Below the pieces are notes generated by a model, which saw nothing but the letters and a program-made list of their open reading frames with translations, had not been told where the DNA came from and did not search any database. From the IMG/VR virus record IMGVR_UViG_3300017527_001415, positions 1-35,353 of that record: a DNA stretch of 35,353 nucleotides; one strand, given 5' to 3'. The translations under genes were made by a program, and so were the position numbers. This stretch comes from a virus. Within the stretch, counting starts at the first letter, position 1, and every line of letters starts with the position of its first letter. Positions 1,513-34,389 of the stretch are shown one piece after another.

Positions 1513-2995
1513 TCTTAACTTCGAAGAGGACCTTGCCGGTTTTTCGCCCCGGCAAATGGCCGCAGTTGATGCCCTTGACGACCGCAAAATCCGGTATATT
1601 TTATACGGCGGCGCGTTGGGGGGCGGGAAAAGTTACCTGCTTAGATGGGCTGCCGTAAGACAGCTAATAAAGATAGTAAAAATATATAGAGTCAATAAAC
1701 CTGTCGGGATGATAGCATGCGAGAATTATCCGGCCCTGAAAGACAGACAGATACAAAAAATTGCGACAGAGTTTCCAGCGTGGTTGGGGACGTCGCACAA
1801 TGATCATAAAGATTATGGCAGATGTTACATTTTAAATCCCAAGTTTGGCGGCGGCGTGATCGTGCTGAGGAACTTGGACGACACCAGTAAGTACCAGAGT
1901 GCAGAGTTTGTTTTCGTTTTCGTTGACGAGTTGACAAAGAATAAATATGAAGTGTTCACATTCCTCAGATCACGATTGCGCTGTCCAGGGGTTCCGACAA
2001 ATGAACTCAAATTTATTGGTGCTACCAATCCCGGTGGAATCGGTCACGGATGGTGCAAAGCCTTCTGGATCGACCGAATCTTCGCTGACGAATGGTCCGG
2101 ATTCGAAGACGAATTCAAATACATACCTTCCAAAGCAACAGACAATCCCCACCTTGATGATGATTACTACCGAACACTTGATACGCTGCCAAAAAACCTC
2201 CGAGAAGCGTTTAGAAATGGATCCTGGGACATATATCTGGGGCAGGCTTTCACCGAGTTCAGAAAAGAAATACATATCCTTCCGGATGACACCCCAATCC
2301 CCGCAGGTGCTCCGTGCTATCAGACGTTCGATTGGGGCTTCGGAAAGCCTTTCAGCGTAGGGTGGTGGTATGTTGATAACGAAGGGCGGTTAATAAGATT
2401 CGCAGAATGGTACGGCTGGAACGGGACACCGAACGAAGGACTTAGAATGGCCGACTCGACTATTGCACAAGGTATAGTTGATCGGGAGAAAAGTTTCAAT
2501 GTTAACGGAGTGCCGAGAAACTTTATAAGGATTTCTGGAAATGACATATTTAACAAAAAGCCAGATTACAAAGGCGGTGGGCAAGGCAAATCCACTGCCG
2601 AGGTCTTTGCGGCACATGGACTACATTTCAATCCTGGTGACTCTTTACGAACACTTAAAATCCGTCAATTTAGAGAAAGACTTAAGGTCAGAAGCGATGG
2701 CCAACCAATGTTGTATGTGTATAAAACATGCGACCAATTTATAAGGACAATACCGAACCTGGTGATGGACACCAAAACAACTGAAGATATCGACACAGAC
2801 GGTGAAGATCATGCATACGACGAAGCGTGTAACCTCTGCATGGCGCGTCCGATAACTCCGGAACCGCCGCCAGTGATACAATCTGAGGTTGATAAACGTT
2901 TAGATCATTTAGAAAAACAAATAAGCGACCCATATGATAGGTTCGAACAGGAAACAGTACAAAACGATTTCGGAATAATAGCAACACTACAATAG
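1496..2995 (+). CDS. terL: Terminase large subunit
   Basis: The packaging motor ATPase and nuclease, about 499 residues from this start. The Walker A region GGALGGGKS is at about residues 38-46, and Walker B with the catalytic Asp-Glu pair at 144-145 follows a hydrophobic strand (FVFVFVDE). The C-terminal RNase H-like nuclease is visible as Asp279 (FDWGFGKP), Asp350 (SGNDIF) and Asp442 (DHAYDE). These are the expected acidic residues for metal-dependent cutting of concatemeric DNA. Length and motif order are normal for the family. The start is uncertain: in-frame ATGs lie at 1448, 1481 and 1496, none with a clear ribosome-binding site, so translation is probably coupled to terS, which it overlaps. 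Confidence 0.93.
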   Translation: MSATGNLNFEEDLAGFSPRQMAAVDALDDRKIRYILYGGALGGGKSYLLRWAAVRQLIKIVKIYRVNKPVGMIACENYPALKDRQIQKIATEFPAWLGTSHNDHKDYGRCYILNPKFGGGVIVLRNLDDTSKYQSAEFVFVFVDELTKNKYEVFTFLRSRLRCPGVPTNELKFIGATNPGGIGHGWCKAFWIDRIFADEWSGFEDEFKYIPSKATDNPHLDDDYYRTLDTLPKNLREAFRNGSWDIYLGQAFTEFRKEIHILPDDTPIPAGAPCYQTFDWGFGKPFSVGWWYVDNEGRLIRFAEWYGWNGTPNEGLRMADSTIAQGIVDREKSFNVNGVPRNFIRISGNDIFNKKPDYKGGGQGKSTAEVFAAHGLHFNPGDSLRTLKIRQFRERLKVRSDGQPMLYVYKTCDQFIRTIPNLVMDTKTTEDIDTDGEDHAYDEACNLCMARPITPEPPPVIQSEVDKRLDHLEKQISDPYDRFEQETVQNDFGIIATLQ

Positions 2996-3004
2996 GGGAT
3001 TATA

Positions 3005-3283
3005 ATGGAAGTTATTTTTGCAAAAGACAAAATCGCTGATGCGGCTACATTTTTTCTGGACGCAAGCCCAGAACGCCCTGTAACTTTCCAAGTTGACGGT
3101 GCTCTTGCTGCCGATACGTTTACTATTACCGGTGCTGGTATTGACGGTTCAACTGCAACTACTCTGGCAACAGCGATGGTACTTTCAGCTGCCGCCCCCG
3201 TTATAACTTTCACTTACCCCATTAGAATTATAATTACCAAGGGTACACCGGCTAATAACGTTGGGCTAATGAAGTTGGGCTAA
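3005..3283 (+). CDS. Small hypothetical virion-region protein
   Basis: A 92-residue protein, start supported by AGGGGA (2994-2999), which overlaps the terL stop. The sequence is rich in Ala, Thr, Val and Ile in alternating beta-like patterns and has no Cys, membrane helix or known motif. A small beta-sandwich virion protein is possible, but I do not recognise the family. The gene ends inside a perfect 14-bp tandem duplication (3260-3287) that appears to have altered its last codons and its junction with the next gene. Confidence 0.65.
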   Translation: MEVIFAKDKIADAATFFLDASPERPVTFQVDGALAADTFTITGAGIDGSTATTLATAMVLSAAAPVITFTYPIRIIITKGTPANNVGLMKLG

Positions 3284-3287
3284 TGAA
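3260..3287 (+). repeat. 14-bp perfect tandem duplication at a gene end
   Basis: GTTGGGCTAATGAA occurs twice head to tail (3260-3273, 3274-3287). Removing one copy makes the upstream gene end TTA TGA, overlapping the next gene's ATG in a standard ATGA junction. With both copies the upstream gene gains a Gly and stops at TAA, leaving a 7-base gap. Confidence 0.9.
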
Positions 3288-3290
3288 GTT

Positions 3291-3521
3291 ATGATAAATT
3301 TCGAAGGCCTACTACTTTGTATAAATACTATCGGGATATTCATGATACTGGTATGCATTTTCATGTTAATGAACGTGTTGAAAAAGCTAAAGCCCGAAAT
3401 ACGATACGTGTCGACCAAGAAAGAAGACAGACAAACTGTTAGCCATATGAAGGACGTATATCAGGAGGCATGGGAAGGGGACCCTATAATTGCTAACAAA
3501 AGAACGGAGACAATAAAATGA
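3291..3521 (+). CDS. Small single-pass membrane protein, unknown
   Basis: A 76-residue protein with one clear hydrophobic helix at about residues 7-28, followed by a basic stretch (LKKLKPEIR) and a polar C-terminal tail. This suggests an N-out/C-in single-pass topology by the positive-inside rule. No Shine-Dalgarno is obvious at the ATG; coupling to the preceding gene is likely and was probably tighter before the 14-bp duplication. The stop overlaps the next start (ATGA at 3518-3521). Its place among terminase and portal genes does not explain a membrane role, and no function is assigned. Confidence 0.6.
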   Translation: MINFEGLLLCINTIGIFMILVCIFMLMNVLKKLKPEIRYVSTKKEDRQTVSHMKDVYQEAWEGDPIIANKRTETIK

Positions 3522-4003
3522 TACTCACGTGCACCATGTGCGGCCACGAGATTGCCGACATCAGCGAAGATACTAGGTTACCAATACAAGGGTCTATGTT
3601 CCCCTCCAAGGATCCCAAACACGGCTTCCCTCCTCCGTGGTCACCCGTGGTGGGGTGGGAATATATGTATTGTCCCCTTTGTAGCAAACGTCCTTTCCTT
3701 GATCCAGCTGATGACGGCAATATTTCTATTACTACCAACGAAGGACCCAGGGTCATTACCGCAAAGGGTGTCATTGATGTCACCCCAGAGGTTGTTGATA
3801 TCCCTAAGAGGGAAGTGGTAGACGTTACCCCAGAGATGATAGATAAATCTGAGTTACTTGAGGAACATATCTATGAAGAGGAACCTACTTCTACTTTCGA
3901 ATATCTTTTAGAATCTGGAGAGATAACGCAGAAGGGTTCTTGGTTTGCTTTCGAGGGTAAAAATTATCGTAGAGCTGATTTAGAGGAAATAATCAATGGC
4001 TAA
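3518..4003 (+). CDS. Zinc-ribbon protein between terminase and portal
   Basis: A 161-residue protein. Cys5, Cys8, Cys52 and Cys55 (CTMC and CPLC) form a split zinc ribbon with a Pro/Trp-rich loop between the pairs. A middle segment repeats V-[IV]-D-V-T-P-E-[VM]-[VI]-D (about residues 87-110). The C-terminal third is acidic and ends in a compact domain (SWFAFEGKNYRRADLEEI). Small zinc-ribbon genes are common beside phage portal genes, but their job is unknown to me. It overlaps the genes on both sides (4 and 8 bases), indicating coupled translation. Confidence 0.7.
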   Translation: MILTCTMCGHEIADISEDTRLPIQGSMFPSKDPKHGFPPPWSPVVGWEYMYCPLCSKRPFLDPADDGNISITTNEGPRVITAKGVIDVTPEVVDIPKREVVDVTPEMIDKSELLEEHIYEEEPTSTFEYLLESGEITQKGSWFAFEGKNYRRADLEEIING

Positions 4004-9160: not shown

Positions 9161-9221
9161 TTTAACTGAATATTAGGGGTGGAATTTCACCCCTTTTAAT
9201 CTTAATAAGGAGTATAACATG
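9161..9221 (+). repeat. Direct repeat copy 1 (terminator + ribosome-binding site + start)
   Basis: This 61-base segment recurs at 9484-9544 with a single mismatch (9187 against 9510). It holds a terminator hairpin, the ribosome-binding site AAGGAG and the ATG of the downstream gene. The offset is exactly 323 bases, showing a tandem gene duplication. Confidence 0.9.
9175..9197 (+). terminator. Intrinsic terminator, copy 1
   Basis: AGGGGTG (9175-9181) and CACCCCT (9188-9194) form a 7-bp stem with a 6-base loop, followed by a short T-run (to 9197) and an AT-rich stretch. It sits between the decoration gene and the first 80-residue gene. The short T-run suggests partial termination. Confidence 0.65.
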
Positions 9222-9461
9222 GCTTTTGCCTATACAGTAACAGGAAACGACATTTGGGGACGAAAGCGTGTAGTTATGGGTACCTTTTCCCAAGTTGATG
9301 ATGATACGGGTGGCGATATTGTCACCGGTCTAAGATTAATTGAAGGATTTGATATGAGTGTAAATCCCATAACTGTTTCAGCATCCGGCGGCACTGTCAG
9401 TGTAACACTTGCAGGTTCCGACGGTAACCAAGAAGGGTTCTGGAAAGCTGTAGGGCTGTAA
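9219..9461 (+). CDS. Small virion protein, tandem paralogue A
   Basis: An 80-residue protein with a strong ribosome-binding site (AAGGAG). The sequence goes from MAFAYTVT through R(V)VMGTF, a DTGGDIVTGLRLIE centre and beta strands to FWKAVGL. It shares the start, the VVMGTFSQ, DTGG and TGLRL blocks, and the FWKA-(V/I)-G end with the protein of the next gene, of exactly equal length. Small proteins of this type occur beside capsid and decoration genes in phages, so a minor head or tail structural role is likely but not shown. Confidence 0.7.
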   Translation: MAFAYTVTGNDIWGRKRVVMGTFSQVDDDTGGDIVTGLRLIEGFDMSVNPITVSASGGTVSVTLAGSDGNQEGFWKAVGL

Positions 9462-9483: not shown

Positions 9484-9544
9484 TTTAACTGAATATTAGG
9501 GGTGGAATCTCACCCCTTTTAATCTTAATAAGGAGTATAACATG
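9484..9544 (+). repeat. Direct repeat copy 2 (terminator + ribosome-binding site + start)
   Basis: Second copy of the 61-base segment at 9161-9221, with one difference in the hairpin loop. The two coding regions that follow have diverged far more than this non-coding block. Confidence 0.9.
9498..9520 (+). terminator. Intrinsic terminator, copy 2
   Basis: Same hairpin as copy 1: AGGGGTG (9498-9504), a 6-base loop, CACCCCT (9511-9517), then T-run to 9520. It lies between the two 80-residue paralogues. Confidence 0.65.
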
Positions 9545-9784
9545 GCATTTGCTTACGCAGTAACGAAGAAGGATGTATGGGGTGGCCATAGAGTTGTTAT
9601 GGGTACCTTTTCTCAGGGAAACGGGGATACGGGCGGCGCAGTTGCCACTGGTCTTCGTCTTGTTGAAAATTTTGATATCACCACAGAATGCGAGAATATC
9701 GCGGTGTCTGGTGGTGAAGTAACAGTTACTACAGAAGATCCTGGTGGTGCTCAAGCAGGTTTCTGGAAAGCGATAGGTTACTGA
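9542..9784 (+). CDS. Small virion protein, tandem paralogue B
   Basis: An 80-residue paralogue of the preceding gene, with conserved MAFAY start, RVVMGTFSQ, DTGG, TGLRL and GFWKAIG segments. The middle differs: residues 45-70 are more acidic and carry a Cys. Same length and no insertions, so the fold should be the same. The two proteins may occupy related positions in the virion, or one may be specialised. The stop lies two bases before the next start, which lacks a strong ribosome-binding site, so the adaptor gene is likely translationally coupled. Confidence 0.7.
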   Translation: MAFAYAVTKKDVWGGHRVVMGTFSQGNGDTGGAVATGLRLVENFDITTECENIAVSGGEVTVTTEDPGGAQAGFWKAIGY

Positions 9785-12125: not shown

Positions 12126-12659
12126 ATGGCTATTACGGCTAATGTTGGTGTTGGTATTGGGATTAATTCCTCAGTTACCAGCACAAGGGGAGTTGGTGCT
12201 AATGTAGGTATTGGCATAGGTATCAACTCAACCATGCATACCTCTCCTGTTGCCGCTAATGTCGGCATCGGGATAGGTATTAGTTCTGTGGCTTACGTAG
12301 AGCCGAGGATAGGCGTAAATGTTGGCATTGGAATCGGAATCGGTGCCAAGGCGAACGCTGAGGTCTGGTTGCAGAATAATATTAGCATCGGCATAGGGAT
12401 CAATAGTGAAATTGTAGCCCATTCTGGCATTAAGGCAAATGTTGGTATTGGAATCGGTATCAGTTCAATGATATCTAAGCCGGTTTATGTTGTTGCAAAC
12501 TGTGGTATTGGTATTGGCATCAGTGCAGAAATAGAAGCATATCATGACCTAATCACTAATATGGGCGTAGGTATCGGAATAAATTCTATTATAGATAATG
12601 ATGGCGATACAGTGCCTATTTGTACATTTCCAAGTCATTCTGACAGTAGGTGGTGCTAA
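12126..12659 (+). CDS. Gly-Ile 20-residue repeat protein
   Basis: A 177-residue protein made of eight tandem repeats with the core [AV]-N-[VIM]-G-[IV]-G-I-G-I-[NS]-[SA]. The repeat Asn falls at residues 6, 26, 45, 65, 85, 105, 125 and 145, a 20-residue period broken once by one residue. Between cores lie 10 variable residues. The strictly alternating Gly and beta-branched residues suggest one strand per repeat stacking into a beta-solenoid or similar filament; the variable part would be exposed. The last 20 residues (DGDTVPICTFPSHSDSRWC) do not fit the repeat. It sits among tail genes, so a fibre or spike part is a fair guess. Start has only a weak ribosome-binding site. Confidence 0.7.
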   Translation: MAITANVGVGIGINSSVTSTRGVGANVGIGIGINSTMHTSPVAANVGIGIGISSVAYVEPRIGVNVGIGIGIGAKANAEVWLQNNISIGIGINSEIVAHSGIKANVGIGIGISSMISKPVYVVANCGIGIGISAEIEAYHDLITNMGVGIGINSIIDNDGDTVPICTFPSHSDSRWC

Positions 12660-17361: not shown

Positions 17362-20300
17362 ATGAATCAAAAAGAATATAACGAGTTGATGGCCCGTAAA
17401 AAGGCAAGACAGGGTGCCACAATAGGGCAGCGTGTTGTCAACGATGACGTTAATATTGGACCAATTGAAGAATTTTCACGGGGAATAGGTCGGGGTGCTG
17501 TTAAATCTGCAGCCGCTATTGGACCGGGACTGATTGATCTTGCCTATAGACAAATGGGTGCAGCCGGTAACAAAGTACAAAGTAAAACAGCTGAACTTTT
17601 AGGGCTACCGCCCGAAGAACCGGTATACAATAAAGATAGAACACCATCTAAGTTTAGCCCAATTGGTATAAGTCGCAAAATTCTTGAAAAAACCGATAAG
17701 ATCACAGACTCTGGATTTTTGAAAGGTTCAGATTCGGTTAGAAAGAGTGCTTTTGGGGAGGGGAATGCTGGTGTAAAAGATCCCCAGTGGTGGATTGGTA
17801 ATTTGGCTGAAATGGCCCCGGCTACAGTAACCATTGCCGGTATAACTAGAAGAGCTATCACTAGAAATGGTCAGAAACATCTTGCTACGTTGGGTAGCAG
17901 GACTGCTACTGAGGCTGCAAAGAAAAAAGCTAAAAAAGAAATACAAAAGATATCACGTAATGCGGCCATTGGCTCATCTGTTGTACTGGAAGGGGCCATG
18001 CAGCATGACGAATATAGAAAATGGGAAAAAGAGAACCCTGAATCAGCCACCGCTATAGGTGATGCCGTAGCAACTATGTTTGGTGCTTCTTCCGGTATTC
18101 TGGAAGGTATTGGTATGGGTATGATAATGTCGTTCCCATTTATTAAAAAGTTTGGAAAAACTGCCGGACCTAAGGCCTCTGCTAATTTTTGGAAGGAATT
18201 TGCTAAGGCTGCGCCAAGGTCCATGGCTATTGAGGGTGGTACAGAGGTCGGGCAGCAAATTATCCAGAATATAGGTAAAGGTCTCGGGTATGATTTCGAT
18301 ACGGAAATTACCGAAGGGATCGCGGAATCGTTTATACTCGGTGCTGCTGTTGGTGGTGTGTTTAGTGGGTTTGAAGCCCAACAGGCCAAGTCCCCGAAGA
18401 GCCAGACAGAAGCCGACGAGATGAGGGTAAATAAGGCCAGAAATAGGCTCAAAACCGTAAAGAAGGATATCGCAAAATACCAAGCCGCTCTCGATAAGGC
18501 CAAGCCTGAAAGTTGGGCCCATACCAGAGCCGAAAAAGGTATGGATAGGGCTCTTGCTGAATTGACCAAGCAGGAAAGCATAATAGAAAGGGTAGCAAAA
18601 AGGATAAAGTCTGAAGATAATATAGACACTACCATGCCCACCGATGAAGAGGCATTTGGTACCACTGTTGACCCTAGTCTCACCATTGAAGAGGTTGCTG
18701 AAGGTATAGACGAGGGGACCATATCCATTGAAGATTGGCAAAAATCCCCAAAGGAAAAATACACGGCTGAAGAGATACAGATCGTGGATGAGCATGTAGC
18801 AGACCTGAAAAATCAGCAAGACATCGATGCCCTTGCCAGAGGGGAAGAAGTAGAAGCAGAAGTCCCCATGACACCCCCTGGGTCTACCGTTGTATTGGAT
18901 GGTACTAGTAATGATTCCCCATTTACACAACTACCCGAGGAGTATACAGACGAAGAAGCTATTGATGCTATTCAAAAAGATATGGAAATCATTCTTGAGG
19001 GGGATCAGGACCAAATTCCGAATATATCTTTGTCTGAGAAACCTTTACCCGAACCTGTACAGCAGCTGGCTGATCTATTTGGTATACGAGTTGTATATAC
19101 TAAATTAGATGCTAAACCAGGAGCGATTAATCCTGGTGGCATGAAAAGTCTTGTTGATCCAAAACTCGTTTATATTAACGAACTTTCATCAAAGCCTGAA
19201 CAATTCCTATTTGGTCACGAATGGAGTCACTCTTTAGAGGAAACGAATCCGGCGGCGTATAATGCGTTGCTGAATGCGGCTGTCCCTATGATGAAGAGAA
19301 GTGAGCTTGATAAGTATAAGGGTAAACTTGATAAGCGGGGGAGCCAGATAACAACTGATCGTGATGCCGCGAAAGAGATGCTTGGCGATTTTGTTGGGGA
19401 TAAATTTAGTGACAGGAAATTCTGGGATAAGGTATATAAACAGAACCCATCCAAGTTTAAACAAATAATAAATAGTATACGCGAGTTCGTAGCCAAGATA
19501 GCTGCAAATTTTACAGGGGTTTCTCCCGAGTCGGACGCCTTTTATAATGATATAATGGCTCTTGAGGGTGTTCTTGTCGATGTTCTAAATGAACATGTCG
19601 GTTATACCGGTGCTGTTGAGGCTGTTTCTAATAGTTCCGTACAGACTGGCGAGGCAACAGACCAGAATTTAGGCAATAAACATTTAACCCATATCAAGAT
19701 CGGGGAAAATGGCCAGATCCTTATGAGAGAGGATAAGGGTACCATATATATAACCAGGCTTGCCCGTGCCGGTGCTCGTACTGTTGGCGACATAAGTAAT
19801 ACTCTTACCAAGGAAGGTAAGGGCGCACCTACAGCTGTTCTAAACGAATTAAAGAAATACGCGGAATCTACCGGTAAAAAGATATCAGTTAAGGCAGAAG
19901 GACACCCATATTTTACCAAACAGGGCTTTGAGCAGGATGGCAGTAGCATGGTATGGGAGGCGAAGCCCAAGGAAGGCACCGGGGAGGTCGCCGCTGATAC
20001 CACCGTTGCCGCTGAGAAGCCCGCCAAGGCTGAGGCCCCTGTAAGCAAGAAGGACGCGGAGATAGCCCGCCGCATGGACGAAGCAGAATTACTCAAATCA
20101 AATAGAGAAATACGGGAACTTAACAAGAAAATAAAGGCTGAGCTTGAAGTAGCAAGGGTCGGGAACAAAGAAGAAATTGCATTTGCCAAGGAACAACACG
20201 ATAAGTTTGCTGCTCGTAAAAAGGAACTCGAAACTAGGGTTGCCGAAATAGAGACAAAGAGGAAAGCTGATGATAAGCAAGCAAGGGAACAAGTATCTCG

Positions 20301-23300
20301 TGACCGACAAAAGCGGGAGAAAGAGGCTAGGGACGCACGTGACGCTGCAAAGGGCAAGAAAGCAGATCGCAGCAATAGAAATAAGCAAAGCAAGAAGAAA
20401 GAAACGGGCGAATCTATAGCCGAGGCCGTATCGAAAAGTACCGGCAGTACAGTAACCTTTACCGGTAAACAAGGCGGATTCGGCCCAGTACCAGATACAT
20501 TCCTATTTAATGTTACAGCAAATGGTAAAGAGGCAACCTTCTCTGTACAGGAATTAACCAATAAGGCAGTCAAAGAGGCTGCAATAGCCAAACAAGAAGA
20601 GTTTGCAGCTAAGAAAGATACCAGGACCTTATCTGAAAAAGTAAAAGGTGTAAAAAGGGAAGAGGGGTATAAGGAAACTGGTGGAGTCACTGCAGAACTT
20701 GATCGTATTGTCGATTCCCTTGCCGATGCCGGAAAGCAGGGCGATATGGCCGCATTTGCTCAGGCTATAGCAGATTCCCCCATTGAGATGAATATTGCCA
20801 GTGAAGAAATAGCATTTGCTAATGCAGTTGCGAAGCATATGTTTGCTGGTGAACCAAATGACGGCACGCCCGCTGTCAAGAAAATACCGGAAGGCGTCAA
20901 AGGGAAGAAAACAAAACGTAGGCCGAAGCGTACCAAAGAGGAGCAAATAAAACTTAACGTTCTTACCGCTGAGTTAACCAGTAGTAAACATGTCGAACGG
21001 AAGGATATCAATCAAAAAGACATAGACCGTATCAAAAAAGAGGTCGATCTTCGTATAAATGATATCGATAACGAAAAGACGTTTAATGCCGAGATGGAAG
21101 ACGAACCCACGACATTGATGGATACGCTCAAATTTAGCCTTGATAAAAAGAGAAAGGACCCTAGTTTTAAAAAATGGTTCAAGGGCGGGGTCGTTAAGAC
21201 CGGTACATGGGATGGCTCTGAACCCGCTATGTTGTATCATGGTGCCACCAAAGACCGACAGAATTGGACAAAGGACGAGACCGCATTTCATTTCGGCACT
21301 TCCCCTGCCATTTCTGACGTATATTCGGCAATGTTTACGAATAGGTATGATGACCTTTCTATTGGTCCCGATAATCCCGATTTTGTTGGCATGGCCGATA
21401 ATTTGATGGTTGACTATGGGTACAAAGGCGAGGCTTTTGGAACAGGAGCAAAGACAGTACCGGCATATACTAATATAAGCAACCCACTAGTATTATATTA
21501 TCCCATAGGATATTTCGATAATGTATGGGGCGATGATAGTGTAATCAAAATGGCCCGTGATAGGGGCAATGATGGTATAATATCGATAGATGGGGAGAGT
21601 ATACATCTTGATGAGGCTCATAGTATGTCACCTGAAGCGGCAGAAGCAAATCTATTCAATGATGAAGACTATGAGCGCGGATATGTAATTATAAATGATC
21701 ACGAAGTCAGCACTGAAAAGGTGTTGAAAGCTTTCCAGGAAAGTTTAACCAATGATCTTGACCGTACCCAAACCTCTAACCATGTGGTCATTGTCATTGA
21801 TCCTAAAAAAGTTCGCCCTGCTTTCGATAAGGAATTGAAGTTTAGCCTTGACCCCAAAAAAGAACAATCTAACGCTAGGGAGAGATTTGAAAAGAAAAGG
21901 AAAGAGTTTAAAAAGAATCAGAAAAAAGTAAGCATGGACGACCCTGCTGCGGTACAAAAGGTATTAAGTACGCACCCTATACCAGAAATCAATATACAAA
22001 AATTTGCGTCGGGTAGGGCCAGATGGTTGGATAAAAATCCTATGGCGGGTTCAGTTAGTGAGGATTTTGATTCAGATTTTGCTGACCGGGAGCATCTGAC
22101 TACTGATCAAGAGACAGATGCAAAGTTTGCGCAATATAAGTGGGTACGATCAGAAACTATCCCCAATGCGTACATGAAAGCCGTTGCTGATTTCTTTGGT
22201 GTAAAGATAGTACCGTATGATATATTACCTGAGTCCGATATGAAATACTCCGGTCTATCGATTCAAGGCCATGAAGATATAGTATATTTAAAAAGCAACA
22301 TAGTAAATAATGAAAAAGGGATGCATGTATTCGGGCACGAATTTTTACATAACCTATCTCGTTCGGATCACGAGGCATACAAGGAATTTAGAAGAGAAGC
22401 CGTTAAATACTTAACTGTTCAAGAATTAATTGACTATCGTGAGCATAGGAGCGATAAGGAAACTCTAGATATAGATAGAACCATGGATGAGATACTGGCG
22501 GACAAAGCCGGTGACTTGTTTATTGACCCCAAATTTTGGGATAAGTTGAATAAGAGCAACCCATCTGTGTTCCAAAAGATAGTCAACGTATTGAAAAATT
22601 TACTGACCGCGTTTAGGCATAGCGGGCATTGGGGTCCTCTCCCTGAGTTAAATGAGTTCACTGAACTAGAAGATATGCTGATAAACCTGATAAATGAGCA
22701 TATCGGGTACAGAGGTGCTGCTCTTGATTTAGTAAAAAGTGTTAATGGCAAGGAAGCCGATGTTGACTATCTATTTAGTGATGAGTATAACGATCAATCC
22801 TGGACAAGGATATACTTAGAAAAGGGTAGGTCCAGAATAGTTATTAGGGAAACCGAAGCAGCAGTACGCGTTGATATGTCTAATTCATATGGTGGTATAC
22901 ATATTCTGGATAGCGCTATAAGTACATTGAAACGTTATGGTGTAAAGAATAATAAAAGCATAATTGGACATGATGGCTCAGAGATAGATATACCAGAAGA
23001 AATCATAATGGAATTAAATAAAATTATGACAGACCTTGATAGCGGTAAACCTCAATTTAGCCTTGACGAAAAGGTAAAGGGCAATGAATCATTTGTTAAT
23101 CCGATCAAGCAGAAAATAGAGGACCTTAAGCTCAGTACCAAACTCCCCAAGAGTCTCCCTGCTGGTGATTGGGATAAGATACTAAGGGGGATGGCCCGTA
23201 AGGGTAGGATTAATTACGAAGAGTACGAGTATTCCTACCTACCAGAATGGCTGTCGGAGCAAGAGGGCAAGGTTTCCCGTGAAGACGTCCTTAATTATCT

Positions 23301-26300
23301 GACCGAGAATGCACCCAAAGTTATAGTAAACCATAAATCCGCTGCAGGGGTTGCTGACAAACAAGTTAGGGACCTGTTTATGGATGGTCTCGGTGGCGAT
23401 ACAAAAGCATTAAAAAGAGCGGTATACATATCGACAATGGAAGTGCAGAGGAACCTCAGGCAATCCAATATATTCGACCCTGCTTTAAGTGAAAGACCAA
23501 AAGATCTTGCTAATGAATTAGTAGATCGATTCGCGGGCATGAAAGATGCTACCACTGAACAAAGACTGAATATGTTCAGGCAAGATGTGATAGGTAATAA
23601 AGTATATGATGCAATGGTAAGACGATATAAGTCTGAGGCAGAAAATGCCATAGATACCTCGCAGCAAATGCAAGCTATCCGTACGGAATCATACCAGGAG
23701 CATATACGCAACGGTGTCGATGAGATAACAGCAGAAGATATGGCAGAACGCGCCGCAGAAGCGTGGTATGAGAATGAGCATGGTGAATACTTTGATCATG
23801 ACGAAGCTTCTGGGTTTACATATGATAACATGATACTGCATGGCGGGCTGGGCCGGTACAATGAGACTCTTATAAATTACCACTCTCCCGGTGGTGAATA
23901 TAAGGGAACCGGCGAGTCCCACTGGCGCGAAAATAATGTATTGTCCCATTTGCGCTATGACTCCCACCAGTACGGGGACGGTACCGCTTTGGTGGTGTAT
24001 GAGAATCAGTCCGATTGGCAAGCCGACCTGTCAAGGGACGGGAAGACACGTACCATACCAGCTGAAAAGCTTCTAAAGGAATTGGCCCCTAAAATAAAGA
24101 AGGATCTGGCACGACCGCAGATAGGGAATAGAGCACCCTATTTTAGTGCAGAGGCCAGGGGAGATATAGCATTAGCTATTTTTGACCATCTTATAGCTAA
24201 TAGGAGAATTAGTCTAAAAAGAGGCCAATTTGATAAGATGGAGATACCAGATAACTTGCGTAAGCTGGTTGTCGATAATTACAAAGGCATAGCCCCCACC
24301 ACAGCAAATAAAACTTGGATCAATTCGTTTAATATATTTAAATACAATGTTAACACATTCCCCGAATCGGCTAAGGATTTAAAAGACAGGCATATATCCT
24401 CGTTACTTGATAAGTTCCGTACAATAGCGTCAGTAGGTTCGCCGTCATTATTAAAGTTTGAGAATAGCCTCCGTAAGGCTGTTGGGGAATTTAGAGAGAA
24501 TAACAGGTTTGCAGCATACAGAAAAGACGCTGGTGAGCTTCCTTTTGATATGACGGTTGGCCACCCCAAGGCCCCCTATAAGAAGTCGTGGCCCCTGTTA
24601 GGTTTCAAAACTGCCATGATCGAGGCTTATAAGCGTGGTGATAGTTATGTGGCATGGCCCTCTACTGATAAGCAGGTATCAAAAATTGAAGGGTGGCCGC
24701 GTGGTAGGAAATTCCAAAGTGTAATCGACAAGTATATCAAGACTATGCCTCGTCAGGTAAACGAATTTGTCAAGAAGTACGGTAGCAAGGTAGAAAAGAT
24801 TGAGGTTTCCGGCTATGAGATGTATGGTGTTGAAATAACCCCCAAACTTGAAGAACTTGTCAAGGGACAACAAGTACCTCAGTTTAGTCTTGATGAAAAG
24901 AAAAAATACCCATATAAGAGTGGTTTGTATAAGAAATACCAGGGATCACCAAAAGAGATAATCGATAGAGTCAGTAAAGAATGGGAACCAACTACCGATA
25001 TCAACTATGCTTTCTGGTTAACTCCTGATGGTACTCTTTTAGGCTCCCCTTATAAGCAATCAGTTAAAGACCCATCGCGACCTAGCCATAATGAAATTGG
25101 TGAAGATTTAAAATATGAGAATGGGGATACTATTCCTAGTGACCTTGGTGAAGACTCATGGCTTTCGCATTTTATGGATGCCACAGGGGCAATAAGGGTA
25201 CAAACACATGGGTCTGATGTACTTAAATATATAACTGTTGATAGGCAACCAACTAATAGGCAATGGGCCACTATAAATAGACACTATGATGGACATTTAA
25301 TAGCGGATATATCTACTCATCCAGAGGAATTTATTGATGCTAAAGAAGCTGCTTCAGGTAATATATCGCAAGTAAAGCGGGGCATAAATGAGACTTTAAA
25401 TAATAATGATGTAATAGGCAATGACAGAAACTTTGACCCTACTATGCCTCAGTTTAGTCTTGATGACCCAAAACTAAAATATGACAGATCTGAGTTTGAA
25501 ATACTAAACGCCGCTAGTAAGACATGGAAGCCCACACATGATCCAAAAATAGCTTTATGGGTAACACCGAATGGGGATATGTTAACTAGTCCTACTGGTG
25601 ATGCATATGTTCCTCATGGTGAGATAGTTAAGGATATGAATTTTATAAATGGTACTCCTGTTAAATTTATGTTTCCGTTTGGGCTGACCCCTGCATGGAC
25701 TATATTTGCGGATGCCACCGGATCTGTTAGAGTTCACCCGAATAAACACGGTGTATTTGAGACTATAGCTGTTGGGCATAAAAAGATAACTAGTAAACAA
25801 TGGGGAACTTTAAGTAGGAATACTGATAAGAACAGTAAAATAGCATTAGGCGTATCTGTCCACCCCGATTTAGATACTATCGATTCCAAAGAGGGATTGC
25901 TGTTTTCTGAAGTTCGTAATGAAATAAAACGTATACTTGACGATAAATCCAATCAAGTTAACCCCAGGTCACATAAACTTGATATTGAAAATTCGTTATC
26001 AACCATGTTAAACCATTATAATGATGTATCTCATGGGGACGATTGGTTGTCAAAAAATTTTGATATGACCATAGGTGAGTTAAAAGAAAAAATAGAAAAT
26101 ACTAAGAATGATAATATTGAGTTGATCAATGGACCTATTAATAAAAACGACTTGCCTAATAATAAAGGGGGAATGTTAACAGATGACGTTTTAGGTGGGT
26201 TGCCTCAGTTTAGCCTTGATGAAAAACTCGACGCCAAGGACCCACATGATAGGGTACAAAAGAGTATAGATGAGCACGGTGAGCCGGAAAGTCGACCCTG

Positions 26301-28887
26301 GTTTAGGGGTGTAAAGGATAGGATTACTGCTACTTGGAAGAGTTCCACTTCCATGATACCGATGATCCGCCCAGGCGAACTTGGATATTTTAAGGATAGG
26401 GTACGGTTGGCCAGAGAAATTGATAAATATGGTGCACAGCAAGCCTATTTTAGGATATATAATATCATTGGTAAGCTATCCGACGACGAGAGACAAGTTT
26501 TTACCATGAATATCGTCCTCAACGACATGTTAAATGATACCAAGCCCGATAAAGAGGGTAATGCCATACTCAGGGATGGCCATTTGCCCCATGGCTTCAA
26601 GACCGTTAATGAGATCAGGGAAAGTTTGATACATTTCAGGGCGCAAGCCAAGAAATCGCCCCGCGTTATGAATGCACTGGCTAGGCGAAGGGAGTCTATG
26701 CTGAAGATTCAAAAGGAACTGATAGATAAGGGATATTTGGATGATAGTCTACGCGGAAATGACTCCTACTTCCATCATGAAACAATCCGTAAGATGGTAG
26801 AGGACGACAGCTACCTATTCAACTCTGGTAATCCCAGAATGGAAACCGATAACCTCAAAATGGCAATGGACCGTGGTGGCAGTATAAAGGCATACAGCCT
26901 AAACTATATCACTTCTGAATTTTCCATGATATCCAATGCGGTCGCTACTCTGGAACTGGACAAAATAAGGAAGCAGATTAGATCGGTATACGATATCAAA
27001 CAGCAGCTGGTGAAACGGGCTAAAGGTGGCGATATAATCGTTCCTGAGGGGTATAGAAAGGTATATACCTCTAAGATGCCAGGATGGGGAGCAAGGCCAA
27101 AGTTCCCCGACATGTTGACCAAGGAACTGATAGCAAAGGAAAAACTTAATCGTGAAGTGCTGGAGAAGATAGCAAAGGCAACTGAGAAAAAGGGTAAGGG
27201 TAAAGATTACTGGGTATTGCCTGACAAAGTAGCCGACGCCATGGAGTCAGTACGTGAAGTCAAGGATACGAAAATACAGGCTAAAGTTTCCGAATCCGTT
27301 ATTCAGACGTGGAAAAAGTGGAAATTACTCAACCCGTTTAGTGTATTTAGATACAATGTTAACAACATGTCTGGTGATGTCGATATCGCCCTTGCCTATG
27401 ATTGGCGCATTATGCAGTATTTGCCCCAGGCCATGAAGGATATAGCAGGGGATATCAACAATATGGGAATGAGACTCCCGTTTAACATGCAGAGATATGG
27501 TGCATATCTTACCCCAGAAGTAAAGGCCGAGATGAAAGAGGCCCATAGGACGGGCGTAATCGGTGCCGGATTTGTAATGCATGAAGTAACTAATATATCC
27601 AAAGAGTTCGAAGCCCTTATAAGAGGGCCACAGGGCGGTAGTTTGGCAAAATTCGGCAAAAGGTGGTGGCAAAACTCCAAAGACGCTACCAACTATAGGG
27701 AGAACTTGCTCAGGCTTGCCACGTACAGATACTTTAAGGACCGTATAAAAACCGGTGAGAAGCATATATATGGGGCATCAAACCCGAAAGAGATAGATGA
27801 GATAAGGAATCCGGACGAGAAGGCTGCCAAACTATCCCGTGAACTGATCGGGGATTACGGCAGGTTGTCAGAGAATGGGGAGTGGATGCGTAAGCATTTG
27901 ATTCCTTTCTATTCTTGGATGGAAATTAATGCCCCAAGATACGTACGCATGATGCGGAATCTTAAGCACGAAGGAAAATCAAGGAAGGGTGCCGCTATTT
28001 CCAGTTTAGGATGGAAGGGGTCTGTTCTTGGTGCAAAGATGTTGATGTTCACCGGCATGGTAACATTGTGGAACAACATGATGTTTGGTGATGATGAGAA
28101 AGAACTGAAGGGGTTTCAGAAAAGGCAATCGCACTTGCTGCTCGGTAGACGGCAAGACGGCTCCATTCGCTACTTGCCAATGTCCGGTGCTTTCCGTGAT
28201 GCTCTCTCGTGGTTCGACGGTGACGACGCATTCTACGACCTTAAAGACATAGAGTCGGGCGAGTCGACCCCCGCGCAGAAGCTCCGTGAAGCCTACATGG
28301 CTCCCGTATGGAAAGCGTACCATGGTGCTAGACCATTTTTCAGGACGGGTGTAGAGACCGCTGCCGGATTTACCCTGTTTCCTGGAAATGAGCCGAGGCC
28401 CATACGGGATAAGATGGACTATGTTTCAAAGATGCTCTCTCTGGAGATGGCCTATAGGGCCGCTGCCGGTAAACCGACCCGTGGCATCGCTAAAGAGTTC
28501 TCTAATAAGCTGGTAACAAACGTTGATCCCGGCGAGTCTGCCTACCATGCGATAAGAGAAAAGGTCAGACACTATAATAAGAAAGTGGGCAAGGCAGAGT
28601 TTAAGTCACAGCCTACCTCTAAATCAAATGCCCTGTACTGGTATAAAGAAGCTGTAAAATACGGCGATCTGGAAGCCGCCTCGAAATACTGGCTATCATA
28701 CCTTGATATGGGCGGTTCTATGAAGGGATTAAAGAAGAGTATCAAGCTTGCTCGGCCTACTGGTGGGTTGCGTAGGAAAGATAAAAGAGGATTTTACAAA
28801 ACCTTAACTCAAGATGATAAAGTCTTATTGAACACAGCATCAAAGTGGTATAGACAAACGTACTCACGTTTGCCTAGCAAGCGTTGA
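17362..28887 (+). CDS. Giant multidomain (polyvalent/ejection-type) virion protein
   Basis: A 3841-residue protein filling a third of the window, start supported by AAAGGA. In order: Gly/Ala-rich membrane-active-looking segments (about 52-70, 146-168, 231-269, 319-337); charged helices; metallopeptidase-like domain 1 (HEWSH 619-623, Glu672); GNAT-like segment (about 774-868); charged coiled coil (896-1017); ADP-ribosyltransferase-like domain (LYHG 1291-1294 to about 1490); metallopeptidase-like domain 2 (HEFLH 1659-1663, Glu1710); a large module with HWRENNVLSHLR (from 2187) and ENQSDW (2214-2219), as in phage polyvalent proteins; a duplicated domain (Trp2541, Trp2722); and an LPD38-like helical C-terminal region (about 2960-3841). 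The motif [KQ]FSLD recurs at 1258, 1494, 1899, 2508, 2698 and 2950. Such proteins are packaged and injected in other phages. Individual activities are inferred. Confidence 0.85.
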   Translation: MNQKEYNELMARKKARQGATIGQRVVNDDVNIGPIEEFSRGIGRGAVKSAAAIGPGLIDLAYRQMGAAGNKVQSKTAELLGLPPEEPVYNKDRTPSKFSPIGISRKILEKTDKITDSGFLKGSDSVRKSAFGEGNAGVKDPQWWIGNLAEMAPATVTIAGITRRAITRNGQKHLATLGSRTATEAAKKKAKKEIQKISRNAAIGSSVVLEGAMQHDEYRKWEKENPESATAIGDAVATMFGASSGILEGIGMGMIMSFPFIKKFGKTAGPKASANFWKEFAKAAPRSMAIEGGTEVGQQIIQNIGKGLGYDFDTEITEGIAESFILGAAVGGVFSGFEAQQAKSPKSQTEADEMRVNKARNRLKTVKKDIAKYQAALDKAKPESWAHTRAEKGMDRALAELTKQESIIERVAKRIKSEDNIDTTMPTDEEAFGTTVDPSLTIEEVAEGIDEGTISIEDWQKSPKEKYTAEEIQIVDEHVADLKNQQDIDALARGEEVEAEVPMTPPGSTVVLDGTSNDSPFTQLPEEYTDEEAIDAIQKDMEIILEGDQDQIPNISLSEKPLPEPVQQLADLFGIRVVYTKLDAKPGAINPGGMKSLVDPKLVYINELSSKPEQFLFGHEWSHSLEETNPAAYNALLNAAVPMMKRSELDKYKGKLDKRGSQITTDRDAAKEMLGDFVGDKFSDRKFWDKVYKQNPSKFKQIINSIREFVAKIAANFTGVSPESDAFYNDIMALEGVLVDVLNEHVGYTGAVEAVSNSSVQTGEATDQNLGNKHLTHIKIGENGQILMREDKGTIYITRLARAGARTVGDISNTLTKEGKGAPTAVLNELKKYAESTGKKISVKAEGHPYFTKQGFEQDGSSMVWEAKPKEGTGEVAADTTVAAEKPAKAEAPVSKKDAEIARRMDEAELLKSNREIRELNKKIKAELEVARVGNKEEIAFAKEQHDKFAARKKELETRVAEIETKRKADDKQAREQVSRDRQKREKEARDARDAAKGKKADRSNRNKQSKKKETGESIAEAVSKSTGSTVTFTGKQGGFGPVPDTFLFNVTANGKEATFSVQELTNKAVKEAAIAKQEEFAAKKDTRTLSEKVKGVKREEGYKETGGVTAELDRIVDSLADAGKQGDMAAFAQAIADSPIEMNIASEEIAFANAVAKHMFAGEPNDGTPAVKKIPEGVKGKKTKRRPKRTKEEQIKLNVLTAELTSSKHVERKDINQKDIDRIKKEVDLRINDIDNEKTFNAEMEDEPTTLMDTLKFSLDKKRKDPSFKKWFKGGVVKTGTWDGSEPAMLYHGATKDRQNWTKDETAFHFGTSPAISDVYSAMFTNRYDDLSIGPDNPDFVGMADNLMVDYGYKGEAFGTGAKTVPAYTNISNPLVLYYPIGYFDNVWGDDSVIKMARDRGNDGIISIDGESIHLDEAHSMSPEAAEANLFNDEDYERGYVIINDHEVSTEKVLKAFQESLTNDLDRTQTSNHVVIVIDPKKVRPAFDKELKFSLDPKKEQSNARERFEKKRKEFKKNQKKVSMDDPAAVQKVLSTHPIPEINIQKFASGRARWLDKNPMAGSVSEDFDSDFADREHLTTDQETDAKFAQYKWVRSETIPNAYMKAVADFFGVKIVPYDILPESDMKYSGLSIQGHEDIVYLKSNIVNNEKGMHVFGHEFLHNLSRSDHEAYKEFRREAVKYLTVQELIDYREHRSDKETLDIDRTMDEILADKAGDLFIDPKFWDKLNKSNPSVFQKIVNVLKNLLTAFRHSGHWGPLPELNEFTELEDMLINLINEHIGYRGAALDLVKSVNGKEADVDYLFSDEYNDQSWTRIYLEKGRSRIVIRETEAAVRVDMSNSYGGIHILDSAISTLKRYGVKNNKSIIGHDGSEIDIPEEIIMELNKIMTDLDSGKPQFSLDEKVKGNESFVNPIKQKIEDLKLSTKLPKSLPAGDWDKILRGMARKGRINYEEYEYSYLPEWLSEQEGKVSREDVLNYLTENAPKVIVNHKSAAGVADKQVRDLFMDGLGGDTKALKRAVYISTMEVQRNLRQSNIFDPALSERPKDLANELVDRFAGMKDATTEQRLNMFRQDVIGNKVYDAMVRRYKSEAENAIDTSQQMQAIRTESYQEHIRNGVDEITAEDMAERAAEAWYENEHGEYFDHDEASGFTYDNMILHGGLGRYNETLINYHSPGGEYKGTGESHWRENNVLSHLRYDSHQYGDGTALVVYENQSDWQADLSRDGKTRTIPAEKLLKELAPKIKKDLARPQIGNRAPYFSAEARGDIALAIFDHLIANRRISLKRGQFDKMEIPDNLRKLVVDNYKGIAPTTANKTWINSFNIFKYNVNTFPESAKDLKDRHISSLLDKFRTIASVGSPSLLKFENSLRKAVGEFRENNRFAAYRKDAGELPFDMTVGHPKAPYKKSWPLLGFKTAMIEAYKRGDSYVAWPSTDKQVSKIEGWPRGRKFQSVIDKYIKTMPRQVNEFVKKYGSKVEKIEVSGYEMYGVEITPKLEELVKGQQVPQFSLDEKKKYPYKSGLYKKYQGSPKEIIDRVSKEWEPTTDINYAFWLTPDGTLLGSPYKQSVKDPSRPSHNEIGEDLKYENGDTIPSDLGEDSWLSHFMDATGAIRVQTHGSDVLKYITVDRQPTNRQWATINRHYDGHLIADISTHPEEFIDAKEAASGNISQVKRGINETLNNNDVIGNDRNFDPTMPQFSLDDPKLKYDRSEFEILNAASKTWKPTHDPKIALWVTPNGDMLTSPTGDAYVPHGEIVKDMNFINGTPVKFMFPFGLTPAWTIFADATGSVRVHPNKHGVFETIAVGHKKITSKQWGTLSRNTDKNSKIALGVSVHPDLDTIDSKEGLLFSEVRNEIKRILDDKSNQVNPRSHKLDIENSLSTMLNHYNDVSHGDDWLSKNFDMTIGELKEKIENTKNDNIELINGPINKNDLPNNKGGMLTDDVLGGLPQFSLDEKLDAKDPHDRVQKSIDEHGEPESRPWFRGVKDRITATWKSSTSMIPMIRPGELGYFKDRVRLAREIDKYGAQQAYFRIYNIIGKLSDDERQVFTMNIVLNDMLNDTKPDKEGNAILRDGHLPHGFKTVNEIRESLIHFRAQAKKSPRVMNALARRRESMLKIQKELIDKGYLDDSLRGNDSYFHHETIRKMVEDDSYLFNSGNPRMETDNLKMAMDRGGSIKAYSLNYITSEFSMISNAVATLELDKIRKQIRSVYDIKQQLVKRAKGGDIIVPEGYRKVYTSKMPGWGARPKFPDMLTKELIAKEKLNREVLEKIAKATEKKGKGKDYWVLPDKVADAMESVREVKDTKIQAKVSESVIQTWKKWKLLNPFSVFRYNVNNMSGDVDIALAYDWRIMQYLPQAMKDIAGDINNMGMRLPFNMQRYGAYLTPEVKAEMKEAHRTGVIGAGFVMHEVTNISKEFEALIRGPQGGSLAKFGKRWWQNSKDATNYRENLLRLATYRYFKDRIKTGEKHIYGASNPKEIDEIRNPDEKAAKLSRELIGDYGRLSENGEWMRKHLIPFYSWMEINAPRYVRMMRNLKHEGKSRKGAAISSLGWKGSVLGAKMLMFTGMVTLWNNMMFGDDEKELKGFQKRQSHLLLGRRQDGSIRYLPMSGAFRDALSWFDGDDAFYDLKDIESGESTPAQKLREAYMAPVWKAYHGARPFFRTGVETAAGFTLFPGNEPRPIRDKMDYVSKMLSLEMAYRAAAGKPTRGIAKEFSNKLVTNVDPGESAYHAIREKVRHYNKKVGKAEFKSQPTSKSNALYWYKEAVKYGDLEAASKYWLSYLDMGGSMKGLKKSIKLARPTGGLRRKDKRGFYKTLTQDDKVLLNTASKWYRQTYSRLPSKR
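24877..25466 (+). repeat. Domain-border repeat encoding PQFSLD (two identical 20-bp copies)
   Basis: An identical 20-base segment (starting CCTCAGTTTAG) occurs at 24877-24896 and 25447-25466, with close relatives at 23050-23069 and 26203-26222. All encode P-Q-F-S-L-D at a domain border of the giant protein. Two K-F-S-L-D copies at 21130 and 21838 share the amino acids and part of the bases. Confidence 0.85.
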
Positions 28888-32850: not shown

Positions 32851-34389
32851 ATGGCAACTCTAGGAACAGATTATCAAATAGTTTGCCTGCCTGACGGATC
32901 ATGGGCCGTAACCTATGTTGGGACTCTGGTCACAAATGATACGCTGGAGTTCTCTGCAGAATCCGGGGCCGCTGCTGCTTATACCTTAACTGCAGATAGT
33001 GGGAGTTTTATCCTCGCTGGGCAGGACGCCACCCTTACATATGCCGGTGAGTATGAAGATTTAGTAGCAGATTCTGGGTCTTTTACTCTCGCTGGGCAGG
33101 ATACCGCTTTAGAGGTCGGTTACTATTTAGAAGCTGAAACGGATTCCCTTAGTATCGGTGCCTTAGATGCTGATTTAGAAGTTGGTTACTATTTAGAAGC
33201 GGAAACATCTTCCATAACCCTCGCCGGTCAAGATGCTACTCTGGAAGCCACCCGATATTTAGAAGCGGAAACATCTTCCATAACCCTCGCCGGTCAAGAT
33301 GCTACCCTAACCTACGCTGGACTTACTCATTACGAGTTAACTGCCGAAACAGATTCCCTCAGTGCCGGTACCCTGGATGCTGGACTCTTTAAGGGGTTCC
33401 TTCTTGATGCCGAGTCTGGGGCGTTTGCTCTTGCGGGTCAAGATACTGCTTTAGAGAAGGGTTTTTATTTAGAGGCCGAAACCGGTGCTATTACCCTTGC
33501 GGGTCAAGATACTGCTTTAGAGAAGGGTTTTTATTTAGAGGCCGAAACAGATTCCCTTAGTATCGGTGCTCTCGATGCTACTCTGGAAGCCACCCGATAT
33601 TTAGAGGCCGAATCTGGGGCAGTTATTCTTGCTGGCCAAGATACCGGCCTTACTCATTACGAGTTAACTGCCGATACCGAATCCGTCACCCTTGCGGGGC
33701 AAGATGTTGCCCTAGAAATAGCCCGATATTTAGGGGCTGAGACCGATAGCCTTGCGGCTGCCACTTTAGATGCCGGATTTCTTTGTGATCGTGTTCTCGA
33801 TGCCGAGTCTGGTTCCTTTACACTGGCCGGACAAGACACGGGGTTGGTCTATACCACATTAGGTGCCTATTTACTGACCGCTGATTCCGGCACCTTAACG
33901 CTTACCGGACAGGATACCGGCCTTATAGCTGCTCAGGATATGGCCGCAGACTCCGGTTCCTTTATGCTGGCCGGACAGGATGCCAACCTGTACAAGGGAT
34001 TCGTTATTAGTGCAGATACCGATGCACTGACCCTTGCCGGACAGGATACCGCTTTAGGGGCCACTAGATATTTAGAAGCTGAGACCGACCCTGTTGTCCT
34101 TGCTGGGCAAGATATCGGGCTTGGCTCCGGCTCTATATTAAATGCTGAATCCGGAGCGTTTACCTTCACAGGACAAGATGTTGATTTTGATAGAGAGTTT
34201 GTTCTCGATGCTGAATCCGGCCATATTACCCTTACTGGCCAGAATATCTTAATTGATTGGAGTGGTAGGCCACTTCCAGCCGGTGTAACAGAAATCGAGT
34301 TTACTGTCCGTTATCCATCAGTTGTATTTACCTCACGCGCCCCCTCTGTGGTTGTCACAGAACGTGCACCACTTATAAAATTTTTGTAG
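32851..34389 (+). CDS. Tail-associated 22-residue repeat protein
   Basis: A 512-residue protein. After a short N-terminal domain (residues 1-40), about nineteen copies of a 22-residue unit follow, consensus L-x-A-[ED]-[ST]-G-x-[IF]-x-L-A-G-Q-D-x-x-L-[E]-x-x-x-Y, up to about residue 480. Copies 3, 6, 9 and 12 share a variant (D-S-L replacing G-x-[IF]; L-D-A replacing G-Q-D). The C-terminal 35 residues (EIEFTVRYPSVVFTSRAPSVVVTERAP) do not follow the unit and may be a beta anchoring end. Repeats of the type A-G-Q-D occur in phage and prophage surface proteins. A spacer or stalk near the receptor-binding protein is my inference. Confidence 0.75.
   Translation: MATLGTDYQIVCLPDGSWAVTYVGTLVTNDTLEFSAESGAAAAYTLTADSGSFILAGQDATLTYAGEYEDLVADSGSFTLAGQDTALEVGYYLEAETDSLSIGALDADLEVGYYLEAETSSITLAGQDATLEATRYLEAETSSITLAGQDATLTYAGLTHYELTAETDSLSAGTLDAGLFKGFLLDAESGAFALAGQDTALEKGFYLEAETGAITLAGQDTALEKGFYLEAETDSLSIGALDATLEATRYLEAESGAVILAGQDTGLTHYELTADTESVTLAGQDVALEIARYLGAETDSLAAATLDAGFLCDRVLDAESGSFTLAGQDTGLVYTTLGAYLLTADSGTLTLTGQDTGLIAAQDMAADSGSFMLAGQDANLYKGFVISADTDALTLAGQDTALGATRYLEAETDPVVLAGQDIGLGSGSILNAESGAFTFTGQDVDFDREFVLDAESGHITLTGQNILIDWSGRPLPAGVTEIEFTVRYPSVVFTSRAPSVVVTERAPLIKFL
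33191..33305 (+). repeat. 49-bp exact direct repeat, 66-bp period
   Basis: 33191-33239 and 33257-33305 are identical over 49 bases, offset 66 bases (one 22-residue unit). This indicates a recent unit duplication within the repeat protein. Confidence 0.9.
33430..33548 (+). repeat. 53-bp exact direct repeat, 66-bp period
   Basis: 33430-33482 and 33496-33548 are identical over 53 bases, again offset 66. With the 49-bp pair upstream it shows ongoing expansion or contraction of the array by whole units. Confidence 0.9.

Follow-up and report, generated by a model that had tools for sequence, protein, structure and literature searches.

MARTX toxins carry a string of effectors in one chain, and the effectors are freed after delivery by cuts in the linkers between them. 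These cuts are made by an InsP6-activated cysteine protease domain, which cleaves after leucines. In polymorphic toxins, the VENN motif of CdiA and the Rhs motifs are short conserved peptides at the border of exchanged variable modules. Phages deliver a large and mostly uncharacterised arsenal of polyvalent proteins at infection. No domain is commoner in polyvalent proteins than the zincin-like one, and module release by it has been proposed without a site (PMC5512222). In large phages such as SPN3US, virion proteins are cut by a prohead protease at defined sites during head assembly (PMC10052503). Here, we describe a giant protein encoded by a virus record of 35,353 bases (IMGVR_UViG_3300017527_001415), which was analyzed over its whole length and is called the window below. 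The protein has 3841 amino acids (open reading frame (ORF) 17362–28887, plus strand, as for all features of its gene) and belongs to the late (virion) gene block. It contains six copies of the peptide [KQ]FSLD. These copies are seams at module borders, and related seams stand at module borders within giant proteins of other phages.

Genes for a terminase, a portal, a major head protein, and a head-closure protein (PHROGs) lie upstream of the giant gene, and residues 115–569 match PHROG 2206 'virion RNA polymerase' (2.7e-11), the sole clear family match of the whole protein. From this gene order and the N-terminal match, we infer that the protein is probably an internal virion protein that is ejected into bacteria. 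Several unrelated effector-like domains are combined in the chain, namely an ADP-ribosyltransferase-like (ART-like) module, two HExxH domains, an HW...ENQSDW module (ENQSDW module below), and a duplicated domain. Similar to MARTX toxins, the effector chain includes a putative peptidase; unlike in MARTX, the HExxH domains are of a different class, no Pfam match to a MARTX-type cysteine protease domain was found in this protein, and cleavage is predicted only. As with CdiA VENN and Rhs, a short conserved peptide marks a module-exchange border, but those systems have one border per protein, whereas up to six are present here and the wording differs between phages. In being encoded among late genes and in combining many modules, ART-like and zincin-like domains among them, in one giant chain, our protein resembles the polyvalent proteins that Iyer et al. 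(2017, PMC5512222) described from phages and conjugative elements. This kinship is based on hidden Markov models (HMMs) built in this analysis, not on curated Pfam families; Pfam gave no match above the cut-off when the giant protein was searched whole and in pieces. In contrast to our protein, no recurrent inter-module peptide is named in the main text of the polyvalent-protein survey (PMC5512222), and no earlier description of the motif was found in the literature searched, which did not cover most subscription journals. Prohead-protease systems also differ: the searches of window proteins turned up nothing recognisable as a prohead protease.

An earlier note on this DNA had placed the phenylalanines of the six copies at residues 1258, 1494, 1899, 2508, 2698, and 2950, with four copies reading PQFSLD and intervals of 236, 405, 609, 190, and 252 residues, and all of this proved correct. 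The motif is found in no other frame of the window. Amino acid composition predicts 0.0054 copies in the giant protein, and the Poisson probability of at least six copies is 3e-17 (computed after the fact). Although the motif is short and the definitions were partly picked after the fact, six copies against 0.005 expected, together with scrambled controls that stay at chance (see below), make chance repetition or compositional bias scarcely credible, and for this protein it is already refuted.

The modules were delimited by iterative HMM searches among fetched relatives. Seam 1 (KFSLD, Phe 1258; 21130–21144) stands before the ART-like module (residues 1266–1493; 21157–21840), which was defined by a family alignment and by Foldseek PARP/ParT matches. 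At its end lies seam 2 (KFSLD, Phe 1494; 21838–21852), in a place where related ART modules have PDIRFS. Metallopeptidase-like domain 2 (residues ~1606–1783, HEFLH at 1659; 22177–22710; HMM) is located between seam 2 and seam 3 (QFSLD, Phe 1899; 23053–23067), followed by the ENQSDW module (residues 1903–2506; 23068–24879) and seam 4 (QFSLD, Phe 2508; 24880–24894). Copy 1 of the duplicated domain (residues 2520–2682; 24919–25407; HMM and BLASTP) precedes seam 5, seen in the sequence (QFSLD, Phe 2698; 25450–25464), and copy 2 (residues 2705–2864; 25474–25953), which is 35% identical to copy 1, precedes seam 6 (QFSLD, Phe 2950; 26206–26220). The chain ends in a conserved C-terminal module (residues ~2991–3835; 26332–28866) that was found in 30 viral loci. 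Because five different module types precede the six seams, the seams are not the end-piece of any single fold. The claim that the motif marks nearly every domain border is valid for residues 1258–2950, but not for the N-terminal 1250 and the last 890 residues, which have no [KQ]FSLD inside. In the N-terminal part, PNISLSEK (residues 553–560; 19018–19041), noted earlier as a degraded copy ahead of metallopeptidase-like domain 1 (residues ~567–748, HEWSH at 619; 19060–19605), was found with that sequence at that position and is a possible degenerate seam; a sister phage has VSLSKK at the equivalent place.

The domain descriptions of the earlier note were upheld as well. Foldseek matched the AlphaFold2 model of the ART-like fold to tankyrase and ParT, with a probability of up to 0.99 but E values of at least 2e-3. 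The two HExxH domains are homologous (33% identical), belong to an HMM family common to more than 20 other viral proteins, and have predicted peptidase activity only. The domain families are shared with other giant phage proteins: the ART-like module belongs to the same family as modules in 70+ viral loci, the metallopeptidase gave 26–32 matches, and the ENQSDW module has relatives in viral and GTDB loci, including many phages and prophages as well as bacterial and archaeal genome assemblies. Foldseek found nothing significant with the model of the ENQSDW module. The ART and small-domain pieces of the window, searched alone in viral contigs, gave zero relatives, and tblastn with the C-terminal two thirds of the giant protein against named phages gave no match. 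Assignment of the C-terminal module to Pfam LPD38 was rejected, since LPD38 does not match.

AlphaFold2 models, which for the ART and ENQSDW modules are of modest quality, were used to locate the seams relative to ordered structure, as given by the predicted local distance difference test (pLDDT). Of the four copies with an informative placement, three border on or fall within stretches of pLDDT below 50. The model of the ENQSDW module was built from 13 sequences (mean pLDDT 53); it has seam 3 (pLDDT ~27) in such a stretch, and its ordered part stops at the phenylalanine of seam 4, immediately after which pLDDT drops below 50. For the ART module (37 sequences, mean pLDDT 61), pLDDT at seam 2 is under 50, and seam 1 belongs to an N-terminal helix (~73) that precedes the conserved core. 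Confidence is also low around seam 5, but there the entire duplicated domain is poorly modelled, which makes this copy uninformative. Most copies are thus not placed inside folded cores in these models, the arrangement that the earlier note had named as speaking against border peptides.

Comparison with the sister phage (IMGVR_UViG_3300021511_000022, L001) revealed what happens at the seams. The two giant proteins are 58–69% identical over their N- and C-terminal parts. BLASTP aligned window residues 1089–1265, 1875–2547, and 2947–3840 with L001 residues 1008–1172, 1444–2130, and 2079–2967, and the breaks lie at or near seams: homology stops at residue 1265 after seam 1, restarts near seam 3 (alignment from residue 1875) and resumes at residue 2947 at seam 6. 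In the window, the ART-like module and metallopeptidase-like domain 2 lie between seams 1 and 3, whereas L001 lacks the latter at the equivalent place and has a different stretch of 130 residues, together with the peptide LQFSLAP and a single copy of the duplicated domain. The ENQSDW module is present in both (51% identical), followed by two copies of the duplicated domain in the window and none in L001. An FSL (or FNL) peptide is located at every module change. Whole modules are therefore gained or lost at seams between the two sister phages.

At the DNA level, all six seams of the giant gene read TTT AGY CTT GAY, and the proline is CCT in 4/4 cases. AGY accounts for 35% of serine and CTT for 24% of leucine codons in this gene, and the joint chance of the seam codons is ~4e-9 (calculated after the fact). 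Two copies had been reported to be identical over 20 bases, and 24877–24896 and 25447–25466 indeed share CCTCAGTTTAGTCTTGATGA, though the flanking domains are 35% identical. This uniform seam DNA points to recent copying between module ends; in this lineage, the seam was probably copied at the DNA level, which agrees with the module changes relative to L001. The same codon uniformity, the 20-base identity, and the exchange of modules at seams are also what would be expected if short homologous DNA were kept at module ends for recombinational shuffling, with the peptide as a by-product. The earlier note had offered conserved DNA for shuffling as one of its two readings, and as a general explanation it failed: outside this lineage, the peptide is conserved and the DNA is not. 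Other phages encode identical seam peptides by different codons. FSRREE in L104 is encoded by TTT TCT CGC CGT in one copy and TTT TCC CGA CGG in the other, and the serine of FSRER in L077 is AGC in one copy and TCG in the other. Among 57 multi-seam proteins outside this lineage, 60/162 seam serines are AGY against 60.4 expected, and both serine codon boxes are mixed in 33/57. Even L001 uses CTT or TTA for leucine, and has Asn in the peptide. A scan of 2.9 million viral contigs for the seam DNA pattern found it at the equivalent place in the sister phage only, with 10 other scattered matches, approximately the number of a rough chance estimate. Because seam codons outside this lineage vary at background frequency, what is constrained in general is the peptide, and we consider a DNA seam unlikely. 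The giant gene also has a 36-base direct repeat (24320–24355 and 27329–27364, 86% identical), another sign of intragenic copying, whose two copies encode FNIFKYNVN (ENQSDW module) and NPFSVFRYNVN (C-terminal module).

As a border marker, the motif is supported by the sister-phage comparison, the homology-border statistics below, and the disorder predictions, but it is not a peculiarity of this protein. Many phages and prophages have looser relatives of the form [FY]S[RLVI], such as PDIRFSR, GLPLFSR, QRFSL, and RYSIS, where modules meet in their giant polyvalent proteins. Across the 30 viral loci with the C-terminal module, a [KQL]F[SA] peptide precedes the module in about half, and variants in more distant loci include FKFSRKD, PQFSVAS, VQFSKTE, and FPLFSVK. 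In Dolichospermum phage Dfl-JY45, ITFSR, DIRFSR, FPLFAR, GQPAFSR, and QPMFYR end ART, HExxH, and ENQSDW modules. A Dolichospermum phage protein (L048, 6325–13488) contains several ART-like and two ENQSDW modules, with seam variants at most module ends. Pseudomonas phage F116 has two genes (gp59 and gp60) where vB_PaeM_USP_18 apparently has one polyvalent ORF of ~4950 amino acids (loci L130 and L131), and FSR seams follow HExxH and ART in both. FSR stands at residues 521 and 683 of F116 gp60 and at residues 2999 and 3214 of the vB_PaeM_USP_18 stretch that was read. The feature is not universal, because clear seams are few or none in the crAss-like and Caulobacter polyvalent proteins, which were checked by hand.

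Statistical support was obtained from 68 non-redundant giant proteins, in which FSR occurs 64 times against 24.7 expected (2.6-fold). Five other letter orders of FSR give 14–34, and FSR in other proteins of the same loci occurs 26 times against 40 expected. Homology borders were taken from all-against-all BLASTP, with a segment end counted within 12 residues and expectation by rotation. A segment ends near 20/64 FSR copies (6.0 expected) and begins shortly after 26/64 (9.6 expected), whereas three scrambled motifs (SF[RLVI], S[RLVI]F, and [RLVI]SF) do no better than chance relative to homology borders. FSR was enriched again (44 against 20.7 expected) in a second set, consisting of proteins chosen by ENQSDW from GTDB genomes, where segments begin after 19/44 copies (9.8 expected). 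The excess in the first set persists when ART-type copies are left out (ends 12/54 against 5.0 expected, begins 21/54 against 7.6), and so do the begins of the GTDB set without ENQSDW and ART copies (15/37 against 8.2).

A rival possibility is that a P-x-F end of the ENQSDW or ART family has simply been copied along with modules and has no function itself. An invariant P-x-F closes seven distant ENQSDW modules, including those in which FS is not kept, PDIRFS is a common end of ART modules, and the near-identical seam DNA of the window fits recent copying. However, the peptide also follows modules of neither family (the linker region, the HExxH2 region, both copies of the duplicated domain, and MuF_C), and it is kept in other phages while codons differ, which makes such hitch-hiking improbable.

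A close parallel to the window was found in an Oscillospiraceae assembly (Firmicutes; GTDB match, L178), in which a 4175-residue protein with MuF_C has six QRFS[LVI]-type seams. Within its residues 1164–2373, a duplicated small domain and MuF_C are each bracketed by QRFS[LVI] or a near variant. Seven other MuF_C proteins encoded in Oscillospiraceae genomes were read as well, and in all eight together [RKQ][FY]S[LVI] occurs 25 times against 2.6 expected. Seams flank MuF_C in 7/8 of these proteins, 48–67 residues upstream and 46–97 downstream. HExxH is present in 8/8, and the next seam follows it by 102–186 residues in 6/8 of the distances measured.

Taken together, we tentatively favour the explanation that the FSLD copies are peptide-level inter-module seams, which may well be processing sites predicted to free modules after ejection. 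Shuffling of modules would follow the same seams. As the recogniser, a peptidase suggests itself most readily because zincin-like domains are the commonest in polyvalent proteins and a module-freeing role was proposed for them in 2017. Candidates are the protein's own zincin-like HExxH domains, another phage enzyme acting in trans, and an enzyme of the host. The peptidase would cut the chain after ejection to give separately acting modules, and a new module would work once set between two seams. In this phage, the seam has probably been copied recently as DNA between module ends. Seams lie downstream of HExxH more often than expected (z = 5.3, with some P-x-FS seams counted twice), but much of this excess is positional bias, because the scrambled control gives z = 3.1.

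Several observations weigh against processing at the seams. Between proteins of the viral set with and without this metallopeptidase family, seam density is not clearly different, whether counted by FSR (0.31 and 0.32 per 1000 residues) or by FS[RLV] (0.72 and 0.54; p = 0.08), and several metallopeptidase-bearing proteins have no seam at all. P1 DdrB, the sole polyvalent-type protein with reported processing (to ~76 kDa), lacks a peptide of this kind around residue 700. The virion polymerase of N4, which has an HExxH domain, is packaged unprocessed (PMC5512222) and has been studied as a full-length protein (PMC12633501). In the GTDB set, the segment-end signal was not replicated once ENQSDW and ART copies were left out, and the motif definitions were refined after the data had been seen.

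The absence of a clear dependence on a metallopeptidase would also suit an uncut docking motif, a short linear motif whose copies would all bind the same partner, such as a scaffold, the capsid wall, the ejection channel, or a chaperone, for packaging or threading of the very long chain. The seams are repeated, located in linkers, conserved as peptide, and present as similar variants within one protein. A docking motif alone, however, gives no reason for modules to end at it, the partner is hypothetical, and P1 DarB relies on an N-terminal capsid signal (PMC9024508); we therefore regard it as rather unlikely.

Processing at the seams can be extended to a broader proposal, which at present is doubtful but conceivable. 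Phages of several bacterial phyla might share a linker code, [FY]-S-[RLVI], that means both cut here and join here in injected multi-effector proteins, each phage having its own wording (FSLD, FSRRE, QRFSL, or RYSIS) for its cognate peptidase. The residues after FS are more alike within than between proteins (z = 4.5), but this is only suggestive of phage-specific wording because several controls gave z values of 2–3. If such a shared code exists, these proteins would correspond in phages to viral polyproteins, and any module would be functional when dropped between two seams. A recurrent border peptide also provides a practical way to split polyvalent proteins into modules by sequence alone, and the predicted cut sites make the zincin-like self-processing proposal of 2017 testable. 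Cutting at these sites would mean that phages use a polyprotein strategy, and even uncut seams show how modules are exchanged.

Elsewhere in the window, two paralogous ORFs of 80 amino acids lie side by side downstream of the major head protein gene (9219–9461 and 9542–9784; MAFAYTVTGNDIWGRKRVVMGTF and MAFAYAVTKKDVWGGHRVVMGTF). An ORF of 177 amino acids (12126–12659) has repeated units resembling (V/A)NVGIGIGINS, and one of 512 amino acids (32851–34389) consists of ESGAFxLAGQDTALE-like repeats, with a weak Pfam DNA_pol3_beta match that is probably spurious.

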